Of a stretch of 9,108 nucleotides of DNA, positions 371 to 9,108 are shown one piece after another (position 1 is the stretch's first letter; each line of letters begins with the position of its first letter). Under the pieces are notes generated by a model that saw nothing but the letters and a program-made list of their open reading frames with translations, made no database searches and had not been told where the DNA came from. Position numbers and translations under genes: made by a program. This DNA comes from Aquamicrobium sp. (GTDB taxonomy: Bacteria; Pseudomonadota; Alphaproteobacteria; Rhizobiales; Rhizobiaceae): assembly GCA_014860725.1 (NCBI GenBank), contig JACZJD010000070.1, positions 1 through 9,108 of the forward strand. Direction: 5' to 3'.

Positions 371-401
371 TTGCGATCCACAATGTGGATCGTGTTACGA
401 T
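371..401 (+). promoter_or_regulatory. Candidate promoter of the TRAP/ligase operon
   Basis: TTGCGA (371-376) could be a -35 element. TGTTAC (393-398, 16-bp spacer) or TACGAT (396-401, 19-bp spacer) could be the -10. Neither pair is a strong match. The location is supported mainly by the local drop in GC and by the operator-like palindrome at 374-392, which would sit in the spacer between -35 and -10, a classic repression position. A start site near 405-410 would leave a leader of about 185 nt before the first gene. Confidence 0.35.
374..392. promoter_or_regulatory. Operator O1: perfect 19-bp odd-centred palindrome
   Basis: CGATCCACAATGTGGATCG is a perfect 9+1+9 inverted repeat centred on A383. 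It shares the core GRTCCAYAATRTGGAYC with the palindrome at 458-474. Odd-centred palindromes of this size are typical of IclR-family operators (compare the E. coli IclR-type TGGAAAT-N-ATTTCCA), and an IclR gene lies in the operon. Binding by that protein is inferred; a GntR-type regulator encoded elsewhere is the main alternative. Confidence 0.7.
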
Positions 402-457
402 GTTTGTCTTGTGCGATCGCCTGTTCTGTGCAAGCAAATGAAACGGGAGAAGAAAAT

Positions 458-474
458 GGTCCATAATATGGACC
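458..474. promoter_or_regulatory. Operator O2: second copy of the palindrome
   Basis: GGTCCATAATATGGACC is a perfect 8+1+8 inverted repeat centred on A466. Aligned on the centre it differs from O1 at four positions, and these are symmetric, transition-type pairs that keep the palindrome intact. This is the pattern expected of two sites for one dimeric regulator. The centres are 83 bp apart, close to eight helical turns, so both sites would face the same side of the DNA. If the promoter is at 371-401, O2 lies in the transcribed leader. Confidence 0.7.
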
Positions 475-595: not shown

Positions 596-2464
596 ATGGC
601 TGCCGTCGATGAGGAAGAGCTTTCCGTCGAAACGCAATCCGAGGTGATCGGCGCGCGCCCCGGCTCCGTCTTCATGCGGCCGGTCGAGGTGATCGCGGCG
701 ATCCTGCTGGTCGTCATCGTCGCCCTGCTGCTGACCGGCGTGGTCGCGCGCTACGGGCTGGCGATGCCCATCGTGTGGATCGACGAGGCGGCGTCAATCT
801 CCTTCCTGTGGCTGGCCATGCTGGGCTCGGCCATCGCCATCGACCGCAACGAACACCTGCGCCTGACGGTCTTCCTCAATTTCTTCCCCGCCCGCTGGCG
901 CGGCTTCATCGAGACGCTGGCGATGATGGTCGCCGTCACCGTGCTGGCGGCGCTGCTTCTGCCGGCGGTGGAGTATGTGCGCGAGGAATCCTGGGTCACC
1001 TCGGCCGCGCTCAAGATTCCGGTCAGCTACCGCGTGTCGGCCATCGTCGTCGGCATCGTGCTGATGCTGCTGGTCGCGTTCGGCCATATCGCCCGCACCG
1101 CGGCGAGGCAGGAGATCGTCGCGTCGGTCGCCGTCATCGCCGTGCTCGGCGGCCTCGGCTGGCTGCTGACGCCGTTCTTCCTCGTCCTCGGCTATCTCAA
1201 CATCCTGATCTTCCTCGTCGGCGTCGCCGCGCTCTGCCTCGTCCTCGGCGTGCCCATCGCCTTCTGCTTCGGCATGGGCACCATCGGCTTCCTCGCCTTC
1301 ACCACCCATGTGCCGATGATCGTGATGATCGGCCGCATGGACGAGGGCATGTCGAGCCTGATCCTGCTGTCGGTGCCGATCTTCGTGCTGCTCGGCTGCA
1401 TCCTCGACGCCACCGGCATGGGCAAGGCCATCGTCGACTTCATGGCCTCGCTGCTCGGCCATGTGAAGGCCGGCATGTCCTACGTGCTGCTCGGCTCGCT
1501 GTTCCTCGTCTCCGGCATCTCCGGCTCCAAGGTCTCCGACATGGCAACGGTCGCGCCGGCGCTGTTCCCGGAGATGAAGCGGCGCGGCCACAAGCCGAAG
1601 GAGATGATCGCGCTGCTCGCCACCGGCGCGGCCATGGCCGACACGGTGCCGCCGTCCATCGTGCTGATCGTGCTCGGCTCCGTCGCCGGCGTCTCCATCG
1701 CCGCCCTGTTCACCTCCGGCTTCGTCATCGCCATGGTGCTGCTGCTCTCGCTCGCGGTGCTCGCCCGCTGGAAGGCGCGCGGCGAGAGCATGGAAGGCGT
1801 GTCGCGGGCGCCGTTCAAGGTGGTGCGCGCGACGCTGCTGATCGCCGCACCCGCCCTGCTCCTGCCGTTCATCATCCGCGGCGCGGTCGGCGGCGGCATC
1901 GCCACCGCCACCGAGGTCTCGACCATCGCCGTGCTCTACGCCTTCGTCATCGGCATCGTGCTTTATGGCGGCATCCGGCCGGGCAAGATCTACGCCATGC
2001 TGGTCGAGACCGCCGCGCTCTCGGGCGCGATCCTGCTCATCCTCGGCACCGCGTCGGCCATGGCCTGGGCGCTGACCCAGACCGGCTTCGCCCACCAGCT
2101 CGCCGGCTATATGCGCGAGCTTCCGGGCGGCTGGTTCACCTACATGCTCGTCACCATCGCCGTCTTCATCGTGCTCGGCTGCGTCCTCGAAGGGCTGCCG
2201 GCCATCGTGCTGATGGCGCCGCTGATGTTCCCCATCGCCAAGCAGATGGGCATCCACGACGTGCACTATGCCATGGTTGTGGTCACGGCGATGAATGTCG
2301 GCCTGATGGCTCCGCCCATCGGCATCGGCTTCTACATCGCCTGCAAGATCGGCAACGTCTCGCCCGACGAGGCCATGGGCGCGATCTGGCCCTATCTCGG
2401 CGCGCTCATCGTCGGCCTCCTGCTCATCGCCGCCGTGCCGGCGCTGTCCATCGCCTACCTCTAG
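596..2464 (+). CDS. dctQM: TRAP transporter permease, fused small and large subunits (DctQM)
   Basis: Inner-membrane part of a tripartite ATP-independent periplasmic transporter, which uses an ion gradient to import organic acids delivered by the binding protein. In 622 residues the N-terminal part (about 25-170, four membrane segments) is DctQ-like, with W61-I-D-E and a later LGSAIAIDRNEHLRL stretch. From about 185 to the end it is DctM-like, with many hydrophobic segments, SGISGSKVSD (306-315), ATATEV with T439-E440 in the place of the usual PTEA motif, and a late GCVLEGLPA...MAPPIG region. Fusion of Q and M is known in other TRAP systems such as SiaQM, and the length fits a fusion. ATG 596 follows GGGGAGGAGGGA (579-590). 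The gene opens the operon; dctP follows after 32 bp. Confidence 0.95.
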   Translation: MAAVDEEELSVETQSEVIGARPGSVFMRPVEVIAAILLVVIVALLLTGVVARYGLAMPIVWIDEAASISFLWLAMLGSAIAIDRNEHLRLTVFLNFFPARWRGFIETLAMMVAVTVLAALLLPAVEYVREESWVTSAALKIPVSYRVSAIVVGIVLMLLVAFGHIARTAARQEIVASVAVIAVLGGLGWLLTPFFLVLGYLNILIFLVGVAALCLVLGVPIAFCFGMGTIGFLAFTTHVPMIVMIGRMDEGMSSLILLSVPIFVLLGCILDATGMGKAIVDFMASLLGHVKAGMSYVLLGSLFLVSGISGSKVSDMATVAPALFPEMKRRGHKPKEMIALLATGAAMADTVPPSIVLIVLGSVAGVSIAALFTSGFVIAMVLLLSLAVLARWKARGESMEGVSRAPFKVVRATLLIAAPALLLPFIIRGAVGGGIATATEVSTIAVLYAFVIGIVLYGGIRPGKIYAMLVETAALSGAILLILGTASAMAWALTQTGFAHQLAGYMRELPGGWFTYMLVTIAVFIVLGCVLEGLPAIVLMAPLMFPIAKQMGIHDVHYAMVVVTAMNVGLMAPPIGIGFYIACKIGNVSPDEAMGAIWPYLGALIVGLLLIAAVPALSIAYL

Positions 2465-2496: not shown

Positions 2497-3510
2497 ATGA
2501 ACCTGAACCGTAGAACCCTGATGCTGGGCGCCGCCGCGCTGCCGCTCGTCAGCACCATCCGCCATGCCGGCGCGCAGGCCGCCGAGTTCAACTACAAATA
2601 CGCCAACAACCTGCCGATCACGCACCCGATGAACGTGCGCGCGCAGGAGGCGGTGGACAAGATCCGCGAGGAGACCGGCGGCCGCGTCGCCATCCAGATC
2701 TTCCCGTCCAACCAGCTCGGCGCCGACACCGACATGCTGAGCCAGGTCCGCTCCGGCGGCGTCGAGTTCTTCACGCTGTCGCCGCTCATCCTGTCGACGC
2801 TGGTGGCCAACGCCTCGATCAGCGGTATCGGCTTCGCCTTCCCGAGCTACGACCAGGTGTGGCCGGCGCTCGACGGCGAGCTCGGCGCCTATGTCCGCGG
2901 CGAGATCGAGAAGTCGAACCTCGTCGTGCTCGAGAAGATCTGGGACAACGGCTTCCGCCAGATCACCTCGTCGGTCGGCCCGATCGAGACCGCCGACGAC
3001 CTCAAGGGCTTCAAGATCCGCGTGCCGGTGAGCCCGCTGTGGACCTCGATGTTCTCGGCCTTCGAGTCGGCGCCGGCCTCGATCAACTTCGCTGAGGTCT
3101 ATTCGGCGCTGCAGACCGGCATCGTCGACGGGCAGGAGAACCCGCTCGCCATCATCTCGACGGCCAAGCTCTACGAGGTGCAGAAGTACCTGTCGATCAC
3201 CAACCACATGTGGGACGGCTTCTGGTTCCTCGCCAACAAGCGCGCCTGGGAGCGCCTGCCGGAAGACCTGCGTGAGATCGTCGCCCGCAACATCAACGAG
3301 GCGGCGGTGAAGGAGCGCGAGGACGTGGCCGCGCTCAACGCCACGCTGCGCGGCGAGCTCGAGGCCAACGGCATGGTCATCAACGAGCCGGACACCGCCT
3401 CCTTCCGCCAGAAGCTCGCGGATGCGGGCTTCTACGCCGAATGGAAGAAGAACTACGGCGACGACGCCTGGGCGATCCTCGAGAAGGCGGTCGGCACCAC
3501 GCTGGGCTGA
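2497..3510 (+). CDS. dctP: TRAP transporter substrate-binding protein (DctP family)
   Basis: Periplasmic receptor that captures the substrate and hands it to DctQM. The 337-residue length is usual. The N-terminus MNLNRRTLMLGAAALPL has a twin arginine (R5-R6) before a modest hydrophobic stretch and a likely cleavage after A28 (AQA|AE), so Tat export is possible; the motif lacks some consensus positions and Sec cannot be excluded. Family marks include KIRVP with R175, the arginine that normally clamps a substrate carboxylate, and NFAEVYSALQTGIVDGQENP (197-216, E200). The start at 2497 is set by AAGGAGGA (2482-2489) seven bases upstream, one of the strongest ribosome sites in the window, in keeping with the need for excess binding protein. 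The frame stays open far upstream inside dctQM, but that extension is not coding. The substrate is not predictable; a carboxylate is likely. Confidence 0.95.
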   Translation: MNLNRRTLMLGAAALPLVSTIRHAGAQAAEFNYKYANNLPITHPMNVRAQEAVDKIREETGGRVAIQIFPSNQLGADTDMLSQVRSGGVEFFTLSPLILSTLVANASISGIGFAFPSYDQVWPALDGELGAYVRGEIEKSNLVVLEKIWDNGFRQITSSVGPIETADDLKGFKIRVPVSPLWTSMFSAFESAPASINFAEVYSALQTGIVDGQENPLAIISTAKLYEVQKYLSITNHMWDGFWFLANKRAWERLPEDLREIVARNINEAAVKEREDVAALNATLRGELEANGMVINEPDTASFRQKLADAGFYAEWKKNYGDDAWAILEKAVGTTLG

Positions 3511-3593: not shown

Positions 3594-4406
3594 GTGAGCG
3601 GTCGTCTCAAGGGCAAATCGGCCATCGTGTTCGGCGCCGGCTCGTCCGGGCCGGGCTGGGGCAACGGCAAGGCGGCGGCCGTCGCCTATGCCCGCGAGGG
3701 CGCGCGCGTCGCCTGCGTCGATCTCGTCGCCGGGGCTGCCGCGGAAACGGCGGCGATCATCCGCGGCGAGGGCGGCACCGCGCTGGCGCTCGCCGCTGAC
3801 GTCACCGACCTCGCCTCGGTGAGGAACGCCGTCGCCGAGGTCGCCGACGCCTTCGGCGGCATCGACGTCCTGCACAACAATGTCGGCGTCACCCACATGG
3901 GCGGGCCGGTCGAGCTCGACGAGGAGAAATTCCAGGCCGCGCTCGACCTCAACATCGGCCCGGTCTACCGCACGGCGAAGGCGGTGCTGCCCTACATGAT
4001 CGAGGCGGGCGGCGGCGCCATCGTCAACATCTCGTCGCTGGCCGCCATCCGCTATGTCGGCTACCCCTATTTCGCCTACTACGCCACCAAGGCGGCGGTG
4101 AACCAGGCGACCGTGGCGCTTGCCATGCAGTATGCGCGGTCCGGCATCCGCGCCAACTGCATCATGCCCGGCCTGATCGACACGCCGCTGATCTACAAGC
4201 AGATTTCCGGCCAGTACGCCTCGGCCGACGAGATGGTCGCGGCGCGCAACGCCATGGTGCCCCTGGGCCGCATGGGCACCGCATGGGACGTGGCCGCCGC
4301 GGCCGTCTTCCTCGCCTCCGACGACGCGCGCTTCATCACCGGCGTCTGCCTGCCGGTCGACGGCGGGCAGAGCTGCGCGGTGGCCCCGGTCGCCCCGGTT
4401 GGTTGA
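3594..4406 (+). CDS. SDR-family NAD(P)-dependent oxidoreductase 1
   Basis: Classical short-chain dehydrogenase of 270 residues, expected to interconvert a hydroxyl and a keto group in the cytoplasm. The Rossmann glycine loop is unusual: G14-A-G-S-S-G-P-G-W-G-N-G25 in place of the compact TGxxxGIG. D43 at the end of the second strand favours NAD over NADP. N95-N-V-G98 is the NNAG-type motif. The likely catalytic set is S148, Y162 and K166 (Y-Y-A-T-K), with a Ser-Tyr gap of 14, one more than usual. A C-terminal VDGGQS is typical. The GTG start at 3594 follows GGGAGGA (3579-3585); an ATG at 3586 is out of frame. It lies 83 bp after dctP, across the hairpin, and 3 bp before the regulator gene. 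Its substrate is presumably the imported compound or a derivative. Confidence 0.92.
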   Translation: MSGRLKGKSAIVFGAGSSGPGWGNGKAAAVAYAREGARVACVDLVAGAAAETAAIIRGEGGTALALAADVTDLASVRNAVAEVADAFGGIDVLHNNVGVTHMGGPVELDEEKFQAALDLNIGPVYRTAKAVLPYMIEAGGGAIVNISSLAAIRYVGYPYFAYYATKAAVNQATVALAMQYARSGIRANCIMPGLIDTPLIYKQISGQYASADEMVAARNAMVPLGRMGTAWDVAAAAVFLASDDARFITGVCLPVDGGQSCAVAPVAPVG

Positions 4407-4409
4407 GCC

Positions 4410-5255
4410 ATGCCGGTCGCCTCGCTTCCCCTCCGAAACGACATCACCGGCTCGCAGAGCGTCGACCGCGCGCTGGCGCTGCTGTCGATGGTCGGCCGCC
4501 ACGCCGAGCGCGGCATGACGCTGACCGACGCGGTGGAGAAGAGCGGCCTGAACAAGCCGACATGCCGCCGGCTGCTTCTGGCGCTGATCCGCGCCGGGCT
4601 GGTCGAGCAGGACGAGGAGAGCCGCCGCTACTATCTCGGCGAGGAGGCCTATGTGCTCGGCAGCCTGTCCTCGCGCCGCTTCGGCCTGCTTCAGCTGTCG
4701 ATGGAAAGCCTGCTCAGGCTGTCGAAGAAGACCGAGGATTCGAGCTTCCTCTCCGTGCGGCGCGATACCTATTCGGTCTGCCTCTATCGTGAGGAAGGCA
4801 CCTATCCGGTGCGCACCCATGCGCTTCAGGCCGGTTTCGAGCATCCGCTCGGCGTCGGCGCGGGCTCGCTCGCCATGCTGGCAGCGCTGCCCGACGAGGA
4901 TATCGAGGCGATCCTCGCCGCCAACGCCGCGGTGCTGGCCGAGAAATACCCGATGCTGCCGCCGGAGCGCATCCGCCTCGACGTGGCGCTGACCCGGCAG
5001 AAGGGCTTCGCGCTCAACCCCGGCCGCATCTTCGCCAATTCGTGGGGCATCGGCGTCGCGCTGCGCACGCCGGAGGGCGGCGTGGCGGGCGCGCTCAGCA
5101 TCGCCGCCATCGACAGCCGCATGCAGGATGCGCGGCAGGTCGAGCTGGCGGCGAGCCTGCTGCAGGAGGCCCGCCTCGTCGAAGGAAAGCTCGCCCAGAT
5201 GTTCGCCGCGCGGCGCTCGGGCAACAGGACCATGGAAAGGAGAGCGGCACGATGA
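4410..5255 (+). CDS. IclR-family transcriptional regulator
   Basis: A 281-residue regulator. The N-terminal winged helix-turn-helix spans about residues 14-76: SQSVDRALALL, then TLTDAVEKSGLNKPTCRRLL (37-56), then a wing ending in YYLG. The C-terminal effector domain runs from about 88 to 265, with HPLGVGAGSLAMLAALPD and the late NPGRIFANSWGIGVAL...GALSIAAID stretch typical of the ligand-binding half. IclR proteins act as dimers or tetramers, repressing or activating catabolic genes in response to a small acid. ATG 4410 lies 3 bp after the upstream stop with a poor ribosome site, so translation is probably coupled. The gene is inside the operon rather than divergent from it, which would make its expression autoregulated if it binds the palindromes at 374-392 and 458-474 (inference). 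Its stop overlaps the ATG at 5252. Confidence 0.93.
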   Translation: MPVASLPLRNDITGSQSVDRALALLSMVGRHAERGMTLTDAVEKSGLNKPTCRRLLLALIRAGLVEQDEESRRYYLGEEAYVLGSLSSRRFGLLQLSMESLLRLSKKTEDSSFLSVRRDTYSVCLYREEGTYPVRTHALQAGFEHPLGVGAGSLAMLAALPDEDIEAILAANAAVLAEKYPMLPPERIRLDVALTRQKGFALNPGRIFANSWGIGVALRTPEGGVAGALSIAAIDSRMQDARQVELAASLLQEARLVEGKLAQMFAARRSGNRTMERRAAR

Positions 5256-5287
5256 GCGCAACCCGTCCGGCGGAGCCTGCGGCATGA
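5252..5287 (+). CDS. Possible 11-codon leader ORF between regulator and ligase
   Basis: ATG 5252 overlaps the IclR stop as ATGA and is preceded by AAAGGAGA (5236-5243), a strong and well-spaced ribosome site. The ORF reads MSATRPAEPAA and stops at 5285-5287, overlapping ATG 5284 of the ligase, again as ATGA. It is either a short coupling peptide that hands ribosomes to the ligase start, or the true ligase N-terminus put out of frame by a one-base change or sequence error. The second reading is plausible because the strong ribosome site would otherwise serve only an 11-residue peptide. Without homologues the two cannot be separated. Confidence 0.3.
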   Translation: MSATRPAEPAA

Positions 5288-6894
5288 CGGCGGCGGCAGG
5301 CGGCATGCGCCCCGCGAGCACGCGGGTGATGAACCTCGCGCATTTCCTGACGCAGGCGGCGCGGCGCGATCCCGGCGGCATCGGCTTCGTCTGGGGCGAG
5401 CGGCGCTGGACATGGGCCGAGATGGACGCGCGCGTCGATGCCATGGCGGCGGCGCTCACGCAGCGCTTCGGGGTCCGCAAAGGCGACCGCATCCTCGTGC
5501 AGTCCTCCAACTGCAACCAGATGTTCGAGTCGATGTTCGCCTGCTTCCGCGCCGGCGCGGTGTGGGTGCCGACCAACTTCCGCCAGACGCCGGACGAGGT
5601 CGCCTATCTGGCGCAGGCGAGCGGCGCGCGCGGCATGATCTGCGGCGCGGAGTTTCCCGACCATGCCGCGGTCTGCCGCGCCGCCTCGCCCGCGCTCGAC
5701 TTCGTCGTCGCCATCGGCGAGGCCGAGTTCGGCGACGACTACGACCGCATCGTCGCGAGCCATCTCGGCACGAAGGCCGAGAGCGCCGCTGTCGACCGCG
5801 ACGATCCGTGCTGGTTCTTCTTCACCTCCGGCACCACCGGCCGGCCCAAGGCCGCGGTGTTGACCCACGGCCAGATGGCCTTCGTCGTCACCAACCATCT
5901 GTGCGACCTGATGCCGGGCACCGGGCCGGGCGATGCCTCGCTCGTCGTGGCACCCTTGTCGCACGGCGCGGGCGTGCACCAGCTCGTGCAGGTGGCGCAC
6001 GGGGTCAAGACCATCCTGCCCGCCTCGCAGCGCTTCGACGTGGCGGCGGTGTGGGCGCTGGTCGAGAAATGGCGGGTGACCAACATCTTCACCGTGCCGA
6101 CCATCCTCAAGATGCTGGTCGAGGACCCTTCCGTCGACCGCTTCGACCATTCCTCGCTGCGCTATGTCATCTATGCCGGCGCGCCGATGTATCGGACCGA
6201 CCAGAAGCTGGCACTGCGGAAGCTCGGCCCGGTTCTGGTGCAGTATTTCGGGCTGGGCGAGGTGACCGGCAACATAACCGTGCTGCCGCCGGCCTATCAC
6301 GACCCCGAGGACGGCCCGCATGCGCGCATCGGCACCTGCGGCTTCGAGCGCACCGGCATGCAGGTCGAGATCCAGGACGAGGACGGCAGGGCGCTGGCGC
6401 CGGGCGAGACGGGCGAGATCTGCGTCGTCGGCCCGGCCGTCTTTGCCGGCTACCACGACAACCCGGAGGCCAACGCCAAGGCGTTCCGCAACGGCTGGTT
6501 CCGCACCGGCGATCTGGGCCACATGGACGCCGAGGGCTTCGTCTACATCACCGGCCGCGCCTCCGACATGTATATCTCGGGCGGCTCCAACATCTATCCG
6601 CGCGAGATCGAGGAGAAGATCCTCCAGCATCCCGGTGTCGGCGAGGTCGCGGTGCTGGGCGTGCCGGACCCGGTGTGGGGCGAGGTCGGCGTCGCGGTCT
6701 GCGTCGCGCGCGAGGGCTATTCCCCGGCGCAGATCGACCTCGCCGGCTGGCTCGGCGAGAAGATCGCCCGCTACAAGATGCCGAAGCGGTTCGTGTTCTG
6801 GGACGAGATGCCGAAATCGGCCTACGGCAAGATCGCCAAGAAGCTGATCCGCGAGGAGCTGGCGCGGCGCGGCGAGCTGGAGGAAACGGCATGA
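5284..6894 (+). CDS. AMP-dependent acyl-CoA synthetase/ligase
   Basis: ANL-superfamily enzyme that activates a carboxylic acid as its acyl-AMP and transfers it to CoA. The 536 residues carry the ATP loop TSGTTGRPK (181-189), an A5 motif YFGLGE (321-326, where the usual YGxTE has Gly for Thr), TGD with D410, GRASD with R425 and D428 (Ser where Lys is common), GGSNIYPREIEE, and the catalytic lysine K516 in SAYGK. All residues needed for catalysis are present. The acid cannot be named; medium-chain, aromatic or alicyclic acids are all possible for this group. The start at 5284 is chosen for the ATGA overlap with the leader ORF and a moderate GGCGGAG (5269-5275). ATG 5305 and ATG 5329 (MNLAHFL) are alternatives. 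Its stop overlaps the next ATG. Confidence 0.92.
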   Translation: MTAAAGGMRPASTRVMNLAHFLTQAARRDPGGIGFVWGERRWTWAEMDARVDAMAAALTQRFGVRKGDRILVQSSNCNQMFESMFACFRAGAVWVPTNFRQTPDEVAYLAQASGARGMICGAEFPDHAAVCRAASPALDFVVAIGEAEFGDDYDRIVASHLGTKAESAAVDRDDPCWFFFTSGTTGRPKAAVLTHGQMAFVVTNHLCDLMPGTGPGDASLVVAPLSHGAGVHQLVQVAHGVKTILPASQRFDVAAVWALVEKWRVTNIFTVPTILKMLVEDPSVDRFDHSSLRYVIYAGAPMYRTDQKLALRKLGPVLVQYFGLGEVTGNITVLPPAYHDPEDGPHARIGTCGFERTGMQVEIQDEDGRALAPGETGEICVVGPAVFAGYHDNPEANAKAFRNGWFRTGDLGHMDAEGFVYITGRASDMYISGGSNIYPREIEEKILQHPGVGEVAVLGVPDPVWGEVGVAVCVAREGYSPAQIDLAGWLGEKIARYKMPKRFVFWDEMPKSAYGKIAKKLIREELARRGELEETA

Positions 6895-7634
6895 GCGGCG
6901 CGGTCGTCGTCACCGGCGGGGCCTCCGGCATCGGGCTGGAGACGGCGCGGCTGCTGCAGGAGCGCGGCTTTGTGCCCCACATCGCCGACCTGAAGCGCGA
7001 GGCGCTGGACGAGGCGCGCGCCACGCTCGGCCTGCCGCCGGAACAGGCGCACGCGCTGAGCGTCACCGACGAGGCGGCGGTGGAGGACATGGTCGCGAAG
7101 GTTGCGCAGGCAGGCACGCTCGCGGGCGTGGTCAACTGCGCCGGCATCGCCATGGATCGCCCGGCGGTCGAGACCAGCGTCGAGGATTTCCGCCGCATCG
7201 TCGACGTCAACCTCACAGGCACCTTCATCGTCTCGCGCGCGGCGGCCCGCCTGTGGCTGGCGCAGGGAGAGGGCGGCGCCATCGTCAACGTCACCTCCGT
7301 CTCCGGCATGATCGGCAACAAGGGCCGCAGCGCCTACGGCGCGTCCAAGGGCGGCCAGAACCTCTTGACGCTGATCCTGGCCAACGAGCTCGGCCCGCAC
7401 GGCATCCGCGTCAACGCCGTCGCGCCCGGGCCGATCGACACGCCGCTGACCAAGGCGATCCACACCGGCGACGTGCGTGCGCAGTGGAACGCGCGCGTCT
7501 CGCTGCGCCGCTACGGCGAGCCGCGCGAGATCGCCTCGGCCGTGGCCTTCCTGCTGTCGCCCGACGCCAGCTACGTCAACGGCCACATCCTCGTCGTGGA
7601 CGGCGGCTTCGTCACCGCCGGCCTGGCGCCGTAG
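6891..7634 (+). CDS. SDR-family NAD-dependent oxidoreductase 2 (FabG-like)
   Basis: Classical short-chain dehydrogenase of 247 residues with a textbook motif set: TGGASGIG (8-15), D33 after the second strand (NAD preference), N82-C-A-G85, S136, Y149 and K153 with the usual Ser-Tyr gap of 13, PGPIDTPL, and a C-terminal VDGGF. Homologues are often annotated as 3-oxoacyl-ACP reductases, but in this setting it more likely acts on the imported compound or its CoA ester. It is clearly diverged from the first SDR, so the two are not a recent duplication and probably act on different positions or steps. ATG 6891 overlaps the ligase stop (ATGA), with GGAGGA (6879-6884) six bases upstream. Confidence 0.93.
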   Translation: MSGAVVVTGGASGIGLETARLLQERGFVPHIADLKREALDEARATLGLPPEQAHALSVTDEAAVEDMVAKVAQAGTLAGVVNCAGIAMDRPAVETSVEDFRRIVDVNLTGTFIVSRAAARLWLAQGEGGAIVNVTSVSGMIGNKGRSAYGASKGGQNLLTLILANELGPHGIRVNAVAPGPIDTPLTKAIHTGDVRAQWNARVSLRRYGEPREIASAVAFLLSPDASYVNGHILVVDGGFVTAGLAP

Positions 7635-7646
7635 GGAGCGGCGCGG

Positions 7647-8504
7647 ATGCGGTCGCTGCGCCATCCCGGTCCGCCCGCCGCCGAGCGGGTGCGCGCGGTT
7701 CCCTGCCGTGCCCATCGCCTTTCCCTGACCCTGCCGGCGGGCAGCAGCGTCAACGAGGCGGTGACCGGCGCGCTGGCCGAAGCCGGCTTCGCCTCGGGCG
7801 TCGTGCGGCTCGACGGGGTCTCCGTATCGCCGATGCGTTACGTGATCCCCGCGCCCGCGCCGGACGAAACCCACGTCGCCTGGTACAGCGACACCCGTGC
7901 GCCGGAAGGCGTTGTCACCGTCGAGAAGGCGGCGGTGATCGCCGGCATCCGCGACGGCGAACCCTTCATCCATTGCCATGGCATCTGGCGAGCGGCGGAC
8001 GGCGTGCGCCGCGCCGGCCATCTCCTGCCGCACGATTCGGTCGTGGCGCACGAGGCCCGCGTCGAGGCGTGGGGGATCGAGGGGGCGGCCTTCGTCGCCC
8101 GCGACGATCCGGAAACCAACTTCAAGCTGTTTTCCGCCGAGGTAGCGGCTGCGGGAGCCGCACCTCGCGAGGGCGGCCGGCCGGCGCTCGCCTGCACGGT
8201 GAGGCCGAACGGCGACATCTCACACACGCTCGAAGCCGCCTGCGCCCGCAACGGCATTCCGGAGGCGGCAGTGCACGGCGTCGGCAGCCTGATCGGCGTC
8301 GATTTCGCGGACGGCCGCCACGTGCCGTCCTACGCGACGGAGGTGATGGTGGCGAGCGGGCGCGTGGCCGCGGGCGGGGCGGAGGCCAGCCTCGACGTGG
8401 CGCTGGCCGACATGGACGGGGCGGTCCATGAGGGCGTCCTGCTGCGCGGCGGGAACCCGGTCTGCGTCACCTTCGAGCTGCTCGTCGTCGCGTCGGCGGG
8501 CTGA
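7647..8504 (+). CDS. Tandem PPC/DUF296-domain protein
   Basis: A 285-residue protein that appears to hold two PPC (plants and prokaryotes conserved, DUF296/PCC) domains. The first (about 25-150) has F-I-H109-C-H111-G and then G-H125-L-L-P, matching the His-x-His...His set that binds a metal in prokaryotic PPC structures. The second (about 175-280) has HGVGSLIGVDFADG, LADMDG and GNPVCVTFELLV, but the matching positions are S248, D250 and V264, so its metal site seems lost. In plants the domain occurs in AT-hook DNA-binding proteins; in bacteria its role is largely unknown and there is no AT-hook here. ATG 7647 follows GGGAG (7634-7638), 12 bp after the SDR stop. As last gene of the operon it probably serves the same pathway. 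The domain call is by eye from motifs. Confidence 0.8.
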   Translation: MRSLRHPGPPAAERVRAVPCRAHRLSLTLPAGSSVNEAVTGALAEAGFASGVVRLDGVSVSPMRYVIPAPAPDETHVAWYSDTRAPEGVVTVEKAAVIAGIRDGEPFIHCHGIWRAADGVRRAGHLLPHDSVVAHEARVEAWGIEGAAFVARDDPETNFKLFSAEVAAAGAAPREGGRPALACTVRPNGDISHTLEAACARNGIPEAAVHGVGSLIGVDFADGRHVPSYATEVMVASGRVAAGGAEASLDVALADMDGAVHEGVLLRGGNPVCVTFELLVVASAG

Positions 8505-8611: not shown

Positions 8612-9108
8612 ATGGAACACGACACGCAGGAAACCGGCATCGCCACCAACACCCCTGCGATCGGCAGGCCCCGCACGCGCTGGATCGTCGCCGGCGGCAT
8701 CGCCGTGCTGGCGATCGCTGGCATCGGCGCGGCCGGCGCGATGGGCGGGCCTGACGGCATGGGCCGGCAGTTCATGGAGGTCGGCATGAAGCATGGCGGC
8801 CATTTCGCTGGGCGCGGCCTCACCCGCGCGCTCGACGCCGTCGACGCCACCGCCGAGCAGGAAGACCGCATCTGGGCGATCATCGACGACACCCGCGCCG
8901 ACCTTCGACCGATGATGCGCGAGTTCCGCGACACGCGGACCGCCGTGATCGAGCTGATGGCCGCCGGCACCGTCGACCGCGCCGCCGCCGAGACGTTGCG
9001 CGCCGAGCGCATCGCCGCGCTCGACGAGGCGTCGAAGAAGGTGACGGCCGCGCTCCTCGACGCCGCCGAGGTGCTGACGCCGGAACAGCGCGCCGAACTG
9101 GTCAGGCA
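8612..9108 (+). CDS. Spy/CpxP-like LTxxQ-family periplasmic protein (3' truncated by window)
   Basis: The visible 165 residues start with a short polar segment, then T-R-W and one hydrophobic stretch (about 24-44), which is an uncleaved anchor or signal peptide. A Gly/Met/His-rich linker follows (MGRQFMEVGMKHGGHFAGRG) and then a helical region. LTPEQ (155-159) is a canonical LTxxQ motif, and ATAEQ (79-83) is a weaker first copy, as in Spy/CpxP-type envelope chaperones and metal-responsive proteins. The Met/His-rich linker suggests metal contact, which is not proven. ATG 8612 follows AAGGAG (8599-8604). The reading frame is open to the window end, so the C-terminus is missing. The 107-bp gap and candidate promoter set it apart from the catabolic operon; response-regulator and kinase genes may follow it outside the window. 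Confidence 0.8.
   Translation, partial: MEHDTQETGIATNTPAIGRPRTRWIVAGGIAVLAIAGIGAAGAMGGPDGMGRQFMEVGMKHGGHFAGRGLTRALDAVDATAEQEDRIWAIIDDTRADLRPMMREFRDTRTAVIELMAAGTVDRAAAETLRAERIAALDEASKKVTAALLDAAEVLTPEQRAELVR

Follow-up and report, generated by a model that had tools for sequence, protein, structure and literature searches.

The window analysed here, the whole stretch of 9,108 nucleotides from Aquamicrobium sp., carries an operon of seven co-directional genes and, upstream of them, two palindromic sequences which we call O1 and O2 (Table 1). Of the pathway, NCBIfam gave a family name to the acyl-CoA synthetase alone. The product of the fourth gene is placed in the IclR family by both of its domains, the N-terminal HTH domain PF09339 (49.5 bits, cut-off 22) and the C-terminal effector domain PF01614 (43.8 bits, cut-off 24), and the solved structure nearest to it in sequence, 3r4k, is also of the IclR family (E 1.5e-16).

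Table 1. Positions of the operators, the inter-operator stretch and the operon genes in the window
Feature	Position	Strand	Basis and remarks
Operator O1, palindrome CGATCCACAATGTGGATCG	374..392 (17-bp core 375-391)	.	PWM score 26.8; equivalent site in relatives
Operator O2, palindrome GGTCCATAATATGGACC	458..474	.	PWM score 28.3; in the leader 5′ of the first gene
Inter-operator stretch, proposed to contain the operon promoter	392..457	+	Inferred from promoter-like pairs that several relatives have between the two operators
Fused TRAP transporter permease (DctQ-DctM), encoded at the 5′ end of the operon	596..2464	+	Pfam PF04290, PF06808
TRAP substrate-binding protein DctP	2497..3510	+	Pfam PF03480
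Short-chain dehydrogenase 1	3594..4406	+	Pfam PF13561
IclR-family regulator, proposed ligand of O1 and O2	4410..5255	+	Pfam PF09339, PF01614; sites co-occur and move with its orthologues
Acyl-CoA synthetase	5284..6894	+	Pfam PF00501; NCBIfam NF005676 990 bits (cut-off 774)
Short-chain dehydrogenase 2	6891..7634	+	Pfam PF13561
PCC (DUF296) domain protein, encoded at the 3′ end of the operon	7647..8504	+	Pfam PF03479

Several other elements were noticed around these features. Between iclR and the acyl-CoA synthetase gene (5255-5284) the window has no gene; Sinorhizobium carries an annotated acetyl-CoA acetyltransferase gene at this place (L062, 8080-9249) and many relatives show a gap of similar size. 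The operon is followed by a gene for a heavy-metal resistance / LTXXQ-type periplasmic protein (8612-9108), which lies outside the operon in the compared relatives and had no match above 120 bits in their loci. Just upstream of the operators there is an imperfect inverted repeat of about 200 bp (54-254), with outer arms of 36 nt that are 83 % complementary and two inner arm pairs. It resembles a small mobile or REP-type element and had no match in the plasmid collection. Finally, a reading frame of 63 codons (455-646) has its ATG just before O2 and overlaps the start of the TRAP gene. We rejected a conserved small gene starting at this ATG, as the corresponding frame of a relative (L002) hits a stop after 7 codons when compared by eye, and the reading frame is probably not a gene.

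Two palindromes of one consensus

The preliminary description of this DNA had reported two perfect odd-centred palindromes at the head of the operon, and we recovered both with the same positions and sequences. The consensus it had proposed for them is indeed common to the two, as each fits GRTCCAYAATRTGGAYC without a mismatch. When three mismatches were allowed, GRTCCAYAATRTGGAYC had four strand-wise matches at two places in the window, compared with a mean of 0.09 in the shuffled window, and four matches were reached in 0 of 200 shuffles. A third copy, which the earlier reading had not seen, was absent from the whole window also with up to three mismatches. O1 and O2 are the sole odd-centred palindromes in the window with arms of at least 8, and this holds for arms of at least 7 as well. 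Odd palindromes of any sequence with arms of 8 are expected 0.58 times on average (300 sequences simulated with the dinucleotide composition of the window), so a lone palindrome would be unremarkable, while two of one consensus are remarkable. The centres of O1 and O2, at 383 and 466, are 83 bp apart, i.e. 7.9 turns at 10.5 bp, in agreement with the near eight helical turns given previously. The pair of palindromes is real.

The symmetry of the two sites is a different matter. Half-site changes between O1 and O2 are mirrored as had been described, but the argument for selection drawn from this does not extend to the sites of relatives. Among 128 unique relatives' sites there were 101 purine-pyrimidine cases at position 2/16, of which 59 were mirrored, where independently varying halves would give 47.2; at position 7/11 it was 51 of 116, with 58.4 expected on the same assumption. 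The perfect symmetry of the window pair is therefore not a general rule, and we dropped the mirrored change as an argument for selection, since these counts give it no support. Positions 2/16 and 7/11 of the operator are degenerate R/Y positions.

Conservation of the sites and their association with iclR

We collected orthologous loci by several searches with the IclR protein. The scan of one genome per species gave 44 loci, with L001-L018 and L020 as clear orthologues (62-83 % identity), and in most of these the two sites were apparent at the operon head straight away. In the family, 47 of 199 genomes had IclR matches at E 1e-30 and 33 had them at an identity of at least 48 %; from the 47 matching genomes we left out G040, G110 and G142 as well as the second matches in G074, G099 and G199. 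The order search found matches in 28 of 397 genomes at E 1e-60 and the search of two further families in 14 of 149 and 3 of 12. A class-wide draw of 385 genomes contained the orthologue once, namely in the query's own centre genome. With two plasmid-borne loci added, the total was 84 orthologous loci, and the operon head is present in 82, as the contig ends before it in L015 and L157. The orthologue class rests on the tree position together with neighbours and identity: both the sites and the neighbours acs and pcc are present in L168, whose IclR is 45 % identical, and neither is present in L123 (44 %). The loci are not independent, and the six from Agrobacterium (L009-L012, L014 and L015) are closely related.

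Sites were scored with a symmetric matrix, which we derived from 27 sites in the window and the first 20 loci; the threshold was 9 in the earlier locus scans and 8 in the later ones. Absence of the palindromes upstream of orthologous operons that keep iclR had been named beforehand as the result that would speak against the operators. We found a head site scoring at least 13 in 81 of the 82 loci, the exception (L140) being just under this value (it rounds to 13.0), and a partner site in 78. In the loci outside the matrix set the head site reached 13 in 62 of 63 and a partner of at least 8 was present in 60 of 63. By comparison, none of the 12 loci with other IclR proteins (L019, L123-L133) reached 13 anywhere in the fetched stretch, and the top site score within 450 bp upstream of their iclR genes was 11.4. 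The pair, its conservation, its link to iclR and its clustered spacing can be read from the sequences themselves, and by phylogenetic footprinting O1 and O2 are putative group 1 operators of the IclR family.

The position of the sites relative to the genes varies. In the architecture of the window they precede the TRAP genes, and iclR follows at a distance of about 4 kb. In a second architecture (for example L008, L013, L016, L017, L020, L094, L097 and L099), which lacks TRAP genes of the window type upstream, the pair separates iclR from a divergent TRAP system that is unrelated (25-30 % identity). A third one, read in L119, L143 and L150, has the pair beside a divergent and again unrelated DctP, whose identity to the two other DctP types, as compared for L119, is 25 % and 21 %. 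The pair thus stays with iclR across exchanged transporters and architectures, which argues that the sites follow the regulator and not the transporter. The regulator-plus-operator unit has remained intact while the transporter set was swapped at least two times for unrelated TRAP systems. The IclR protein encoded in the middle of the operon, proposed previously as the ligand, is supported as a candidate by sites which co-occur and move with its orthologues, and we consider the interpretation of the pair as IclR operators to be well supported by these comparisons.

Additional pairs were seen in two cases. L166 carries two, one per operon (3770-3891 and 7921-8032, with iclR forward). The pair preceding the TRAP genes has a spacing of 105 bp, and the one that separates iclR from a divergent dehydrogenase gene has a spacing of 95 bp. 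Chelatococcus genomes have a second IclR gene (58-60 % identical) with its own pair spaced by 107-108 bp (L161-L163). In L161, the one locus that was annotated (stretches 7903-8027 and 12010-13785), the second iclR and its pair lie near genes for L-threonate dehydrogenase and 2-oxo-tetronate isomerase; the second switch perhaps serves a four-carbon acid sugar pathway.

We also searched genomes by pattern. The strict A/T-centred pattern GRTCCAYWWWRTGGAYC occurred at 14 places in the 199 family genomes, 12 of them at the head of this operon, and its reversed control occurred once. The 12 head matches fall in 10 of the 33 orthologue-bearing genomes, the strict match being missing from the other 23 because the motif is degenerate. 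The remaining two places belong to genomes among the 166 without the orthologue, lie inside reading frames and have no iclR adjoining. The looser pattern GRTCCAYNNNRTGGAYC was present at 20 places in 15 genomes, 16 of them at the operon head, with no occurrence of the reversed control. In the 199 family genomes it matched in 62, many times with G+C-rich centres, and we prefer the A/T-centred form because GRTCCAYNNNRTGGAYC is too unspecific across the family. A regulon beyond the operon was considered and rejected, as the remaining 4 of the 20 GRTCCAYNNNRTGGAYC places looked like background.

Spacing of the operators and a putative repression loop

Scanning 300 bp on each side of the head site, we found exactly one partner scoring at least 8 in the 78 loci mentioned above, always 83-138 bp away, and none nearer than 83 bp or beyond 138 bp within the scanned range of all 82 loci. 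Chance would give 1.6 partners over the 82 loci. L006, L095, L103 and L108, where such a partner is absent, have degenerate remnants at 85-86 bp, and the partner is weak (8-12) in L018, L062, L098, L100 and L106. In L018, L062, L098, L100, L103, L106 and L108 the left half of the downstream site is degenerate and the right half (mostly TGGACY) is kept, which suggests that the second operator is asymmetric in this branch.

The spacings of the 77 pairs are clustered in six classes of 83-87 bp (17 loci), 94-96 bp (12), 105-109 bp (24), 116-123 bp (16), 128-129 bp (7) and 138 bp (1), which correspond to approximately 8, 9, 10, 11, 12 and 13 turns; the spacings of 122 and 123 bp (L134 and L138) are off phase at 10.5 bp. 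After the loci were collapsed to 22 clades the phase concentration was 0.73, a value reached in 0 of 20000 draws from a uniform null. Parsimony gives 12 spacing changes, landing near whole turns. The p-values for phasing vary with the number of jumps assumed: when jumps were simulated along the IclR tree for the 77 pairs, p was 0.059, 0.023 and 0.010 for 16, 22 and 30 expected jumps. The first 65 pairs had given 0.09 to 0.014, and the uncollapsed version 0.41 to 0.0097. Judged by these values, helical phasing of the operator pair is likely, not proven. The earlier suggestion that the spacing is compatible with a loop agrees with the relatives, whose spacings cluster near whole turns (tree-aware p 0.01-0.06). 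Loops this short are below the persistence length of DNA, and helical phase should matter for them.

Regarding the promoter, the situation was less clear. In the window, a consensus scan found no convincing promoter between O1 and O2, and the second hexamer of the single consensus match (438-467) lies within O2. In several close relatives the best match coincides with the operator's own A/T core; such matches are probably spurious. We scanned 59 of the 77 paired loci of relatives, taking the two best matches per strand and using no shuffle control, and noted three recurrent promoter-like pairs. All five paired loci from Agrobacterium have TTGATT-17-TATCCC between the sites. Of the 32 divergent loci, 5 have TTTACA-17-TANNNT preceding the site on the iclR side, and 7 have TTGCAA-16-TATNNT on the opposite strand, where it precedes the second site. 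The start point would then fall just before a site, which is the position of a repressor.

Our preferred reading, to which we give a probability of about 0.72, is that O1 and O2 are a two-part operator of the IclR protein encoded in the operon, which would loop the promoter and repress it until released by an effector. An IclR dimer would sit on each palindrome and the two dimers would join as a tetramer, a form that IclR proteins are known to adopt. The joined dimers would hold about 8 turns of DNA as a short loop. The promoter would lie within this loop, and O2 would coincide with the transcription start or follow it closely. Such a loop would keep the genes for the TRAP transporter, the dehydrogenases, IclR and the acyl-CoA synthetase off, and iclR would thus be self-repressed. 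The complex of IclR and operator would be loosened by an effector, for which the acid that is transported, or the CoA ester of this acid, is the probable candidate. Where the genes are divergent, as in some relatives, a single pair would shut both promoters together. The loop is the mechanism we prefer, as yet unproven. For the Hyphomicrobiales lineage of this IclR as a whole, we see even odds for a broader proposal, in which the long-range pair would be obligate, a loop of 8-13 turns would span one or two promoters, its length would change by whole turns only, and transporters would be exchanged around a kept switch.

IclR might also bind the two sites independently and without a loop, O2 blocking the promoter or early elongation and O1 acting as a second control point, either for autoregulation of a divergent gene or as an upstream activator-like site. 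We regard this as rather unlikely, but it has points in its favour: the sections of PMC8222616 considered here describe IclR proteins acting at one site or at tandem sites close together (18-22 nt, but also 3-4 turns), divergent genes could alone demand two sites, and one site is degenerate in several lineages, so both need not matter equally. However, a pair at 83-87 bp is kept for example in the window and in L001-L004 and L007, where no divergent gene explains O1. The lack of any partner outside 83-138 bp and the landing of spacing changes near whole turns also speak against independent binding, even if the tree-aware p is just 0.01-0.06.

Somewhat less probable still is that IclR activates the operon, or both activates and represses it, from O1 as an activating site upstream of the promoter. 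Dual activator-repressor roles have been reported for IclR proteins, and in the portion of PMC11323563 used here such a role of Paracoccus BhcR was hypothesised from a divergent promoter. BhcR is the best NCBIfam match of the window IclR, far below the threshold. Against activation, the promoter-like pairs of several relatives, from the scan without a shuffle control, indicate that the partner site coincides with the start point or follows it, as is typical of a repressor.

It is improbable that the palindromes are the target of another transcription factor, with its gene elsewhere, and that iclR is a co-inherited neighbour. Co-occurrence alone cannot name the binding protein, but iclR is the only regulator gene found in common, the motif type fits IclR proteins, and the sites follow iclR through three unrelated transporters and, in L161-L163, to a paralogue in another pathway context. 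The least credible reading, in which O2 acts as an RNA hairpin of the leader or terminator type and O1 is there by chance, draws on the place of O2 in the leader and a terminator-like hairpin score on the minus strand; we rejected it because asymmetric changes at 2/16 and 7/11 give 57 A-C against 50 G-U, so that plus-strand pairing is broken as often as kept, and because an Rfam search of the window had no match, and the motif is moreover found on both sides of promoters.

Comparison with known systems

The operator consensus of group 1 IclR regulators has been described as GKTYCRYW3-4RYGRAMC (Suvorova and Gelfand 2021, PMC8222616). Compared by eye, O2 fits GKTYCRYW3RYGRAMC at all positions and O1 departs at 2 and 16, with A/T and not K/M. 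The kind of operator is already known, since the motif fits this published consensus, and the expectation that it would define a new operator for the subfamily did not hold against the parts of that study available for comparison. There, group 1 operators are odd 17-bp palindromes with the core TCCRYW3RYGGA, like the window sites, and the regulators control their own and one or two adjacent operons, as proposed here. The difference lies in the distance. The same parts report tandem sites 18-22 nt apart with a weaker excess at 3 and 4 turns, whereas the pairs described here span 8-13 turns; the window pair (83 bp) and those in 78 of 82 loci (83-138 bp) fall outside the range of side-by-side tetramers (18-22 nt or 3-4 turns). 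As far as the searched literature goes, this long and probably phase-kept spacing is new, and the orthologous group may already stand in the supplementary tables of PMC8222616. Among the titles and abstract beginnings of the open-licence literature, we found no IclR looping system.

The window system resembles those of E. coli IclR and AllR and of Paracoccus BhcR, which, as far as described in the consulted part of PMC11323563, are tetrameric repressors of the IclR family released by a small acid; BhcR also sits in a divergent promoter region. The window IclR protein scored 92 bits against the BhcR model NF045644 (cut-off 350) and 57 against the IclR model (cut-off 380), so it belongs to neither. 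The gene content of the window operon differs from that of all three systems.

In lac-type repression, two operators stand near whole-turn spacing around a promoter and the loop is below the persistence length of DNA. With its near-whole-turn spacing and a short putative loop, the O1/O2 pair would resemble such loops, which in E. coli lac span 6-8 turns according to the abstract of PMC5081198. LacI belongs to a family unrelated to IclR, and the loop in the window is a proposal made from sequence. For a widespread, unnamed IclR regulator the pair is a ready target, comprising the sites, the control and the governed operons, and if looping holds, the six natural spacing classes would offer a ready-made series on which helical phasing could be tested. 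In the literature covered, as far as its accessible parts go, the IclR family is described with side-by-side tandem sites only. The pair would then be the first looping switch of the IclR family, with a natural series for the phase dependence of short-loop repression.
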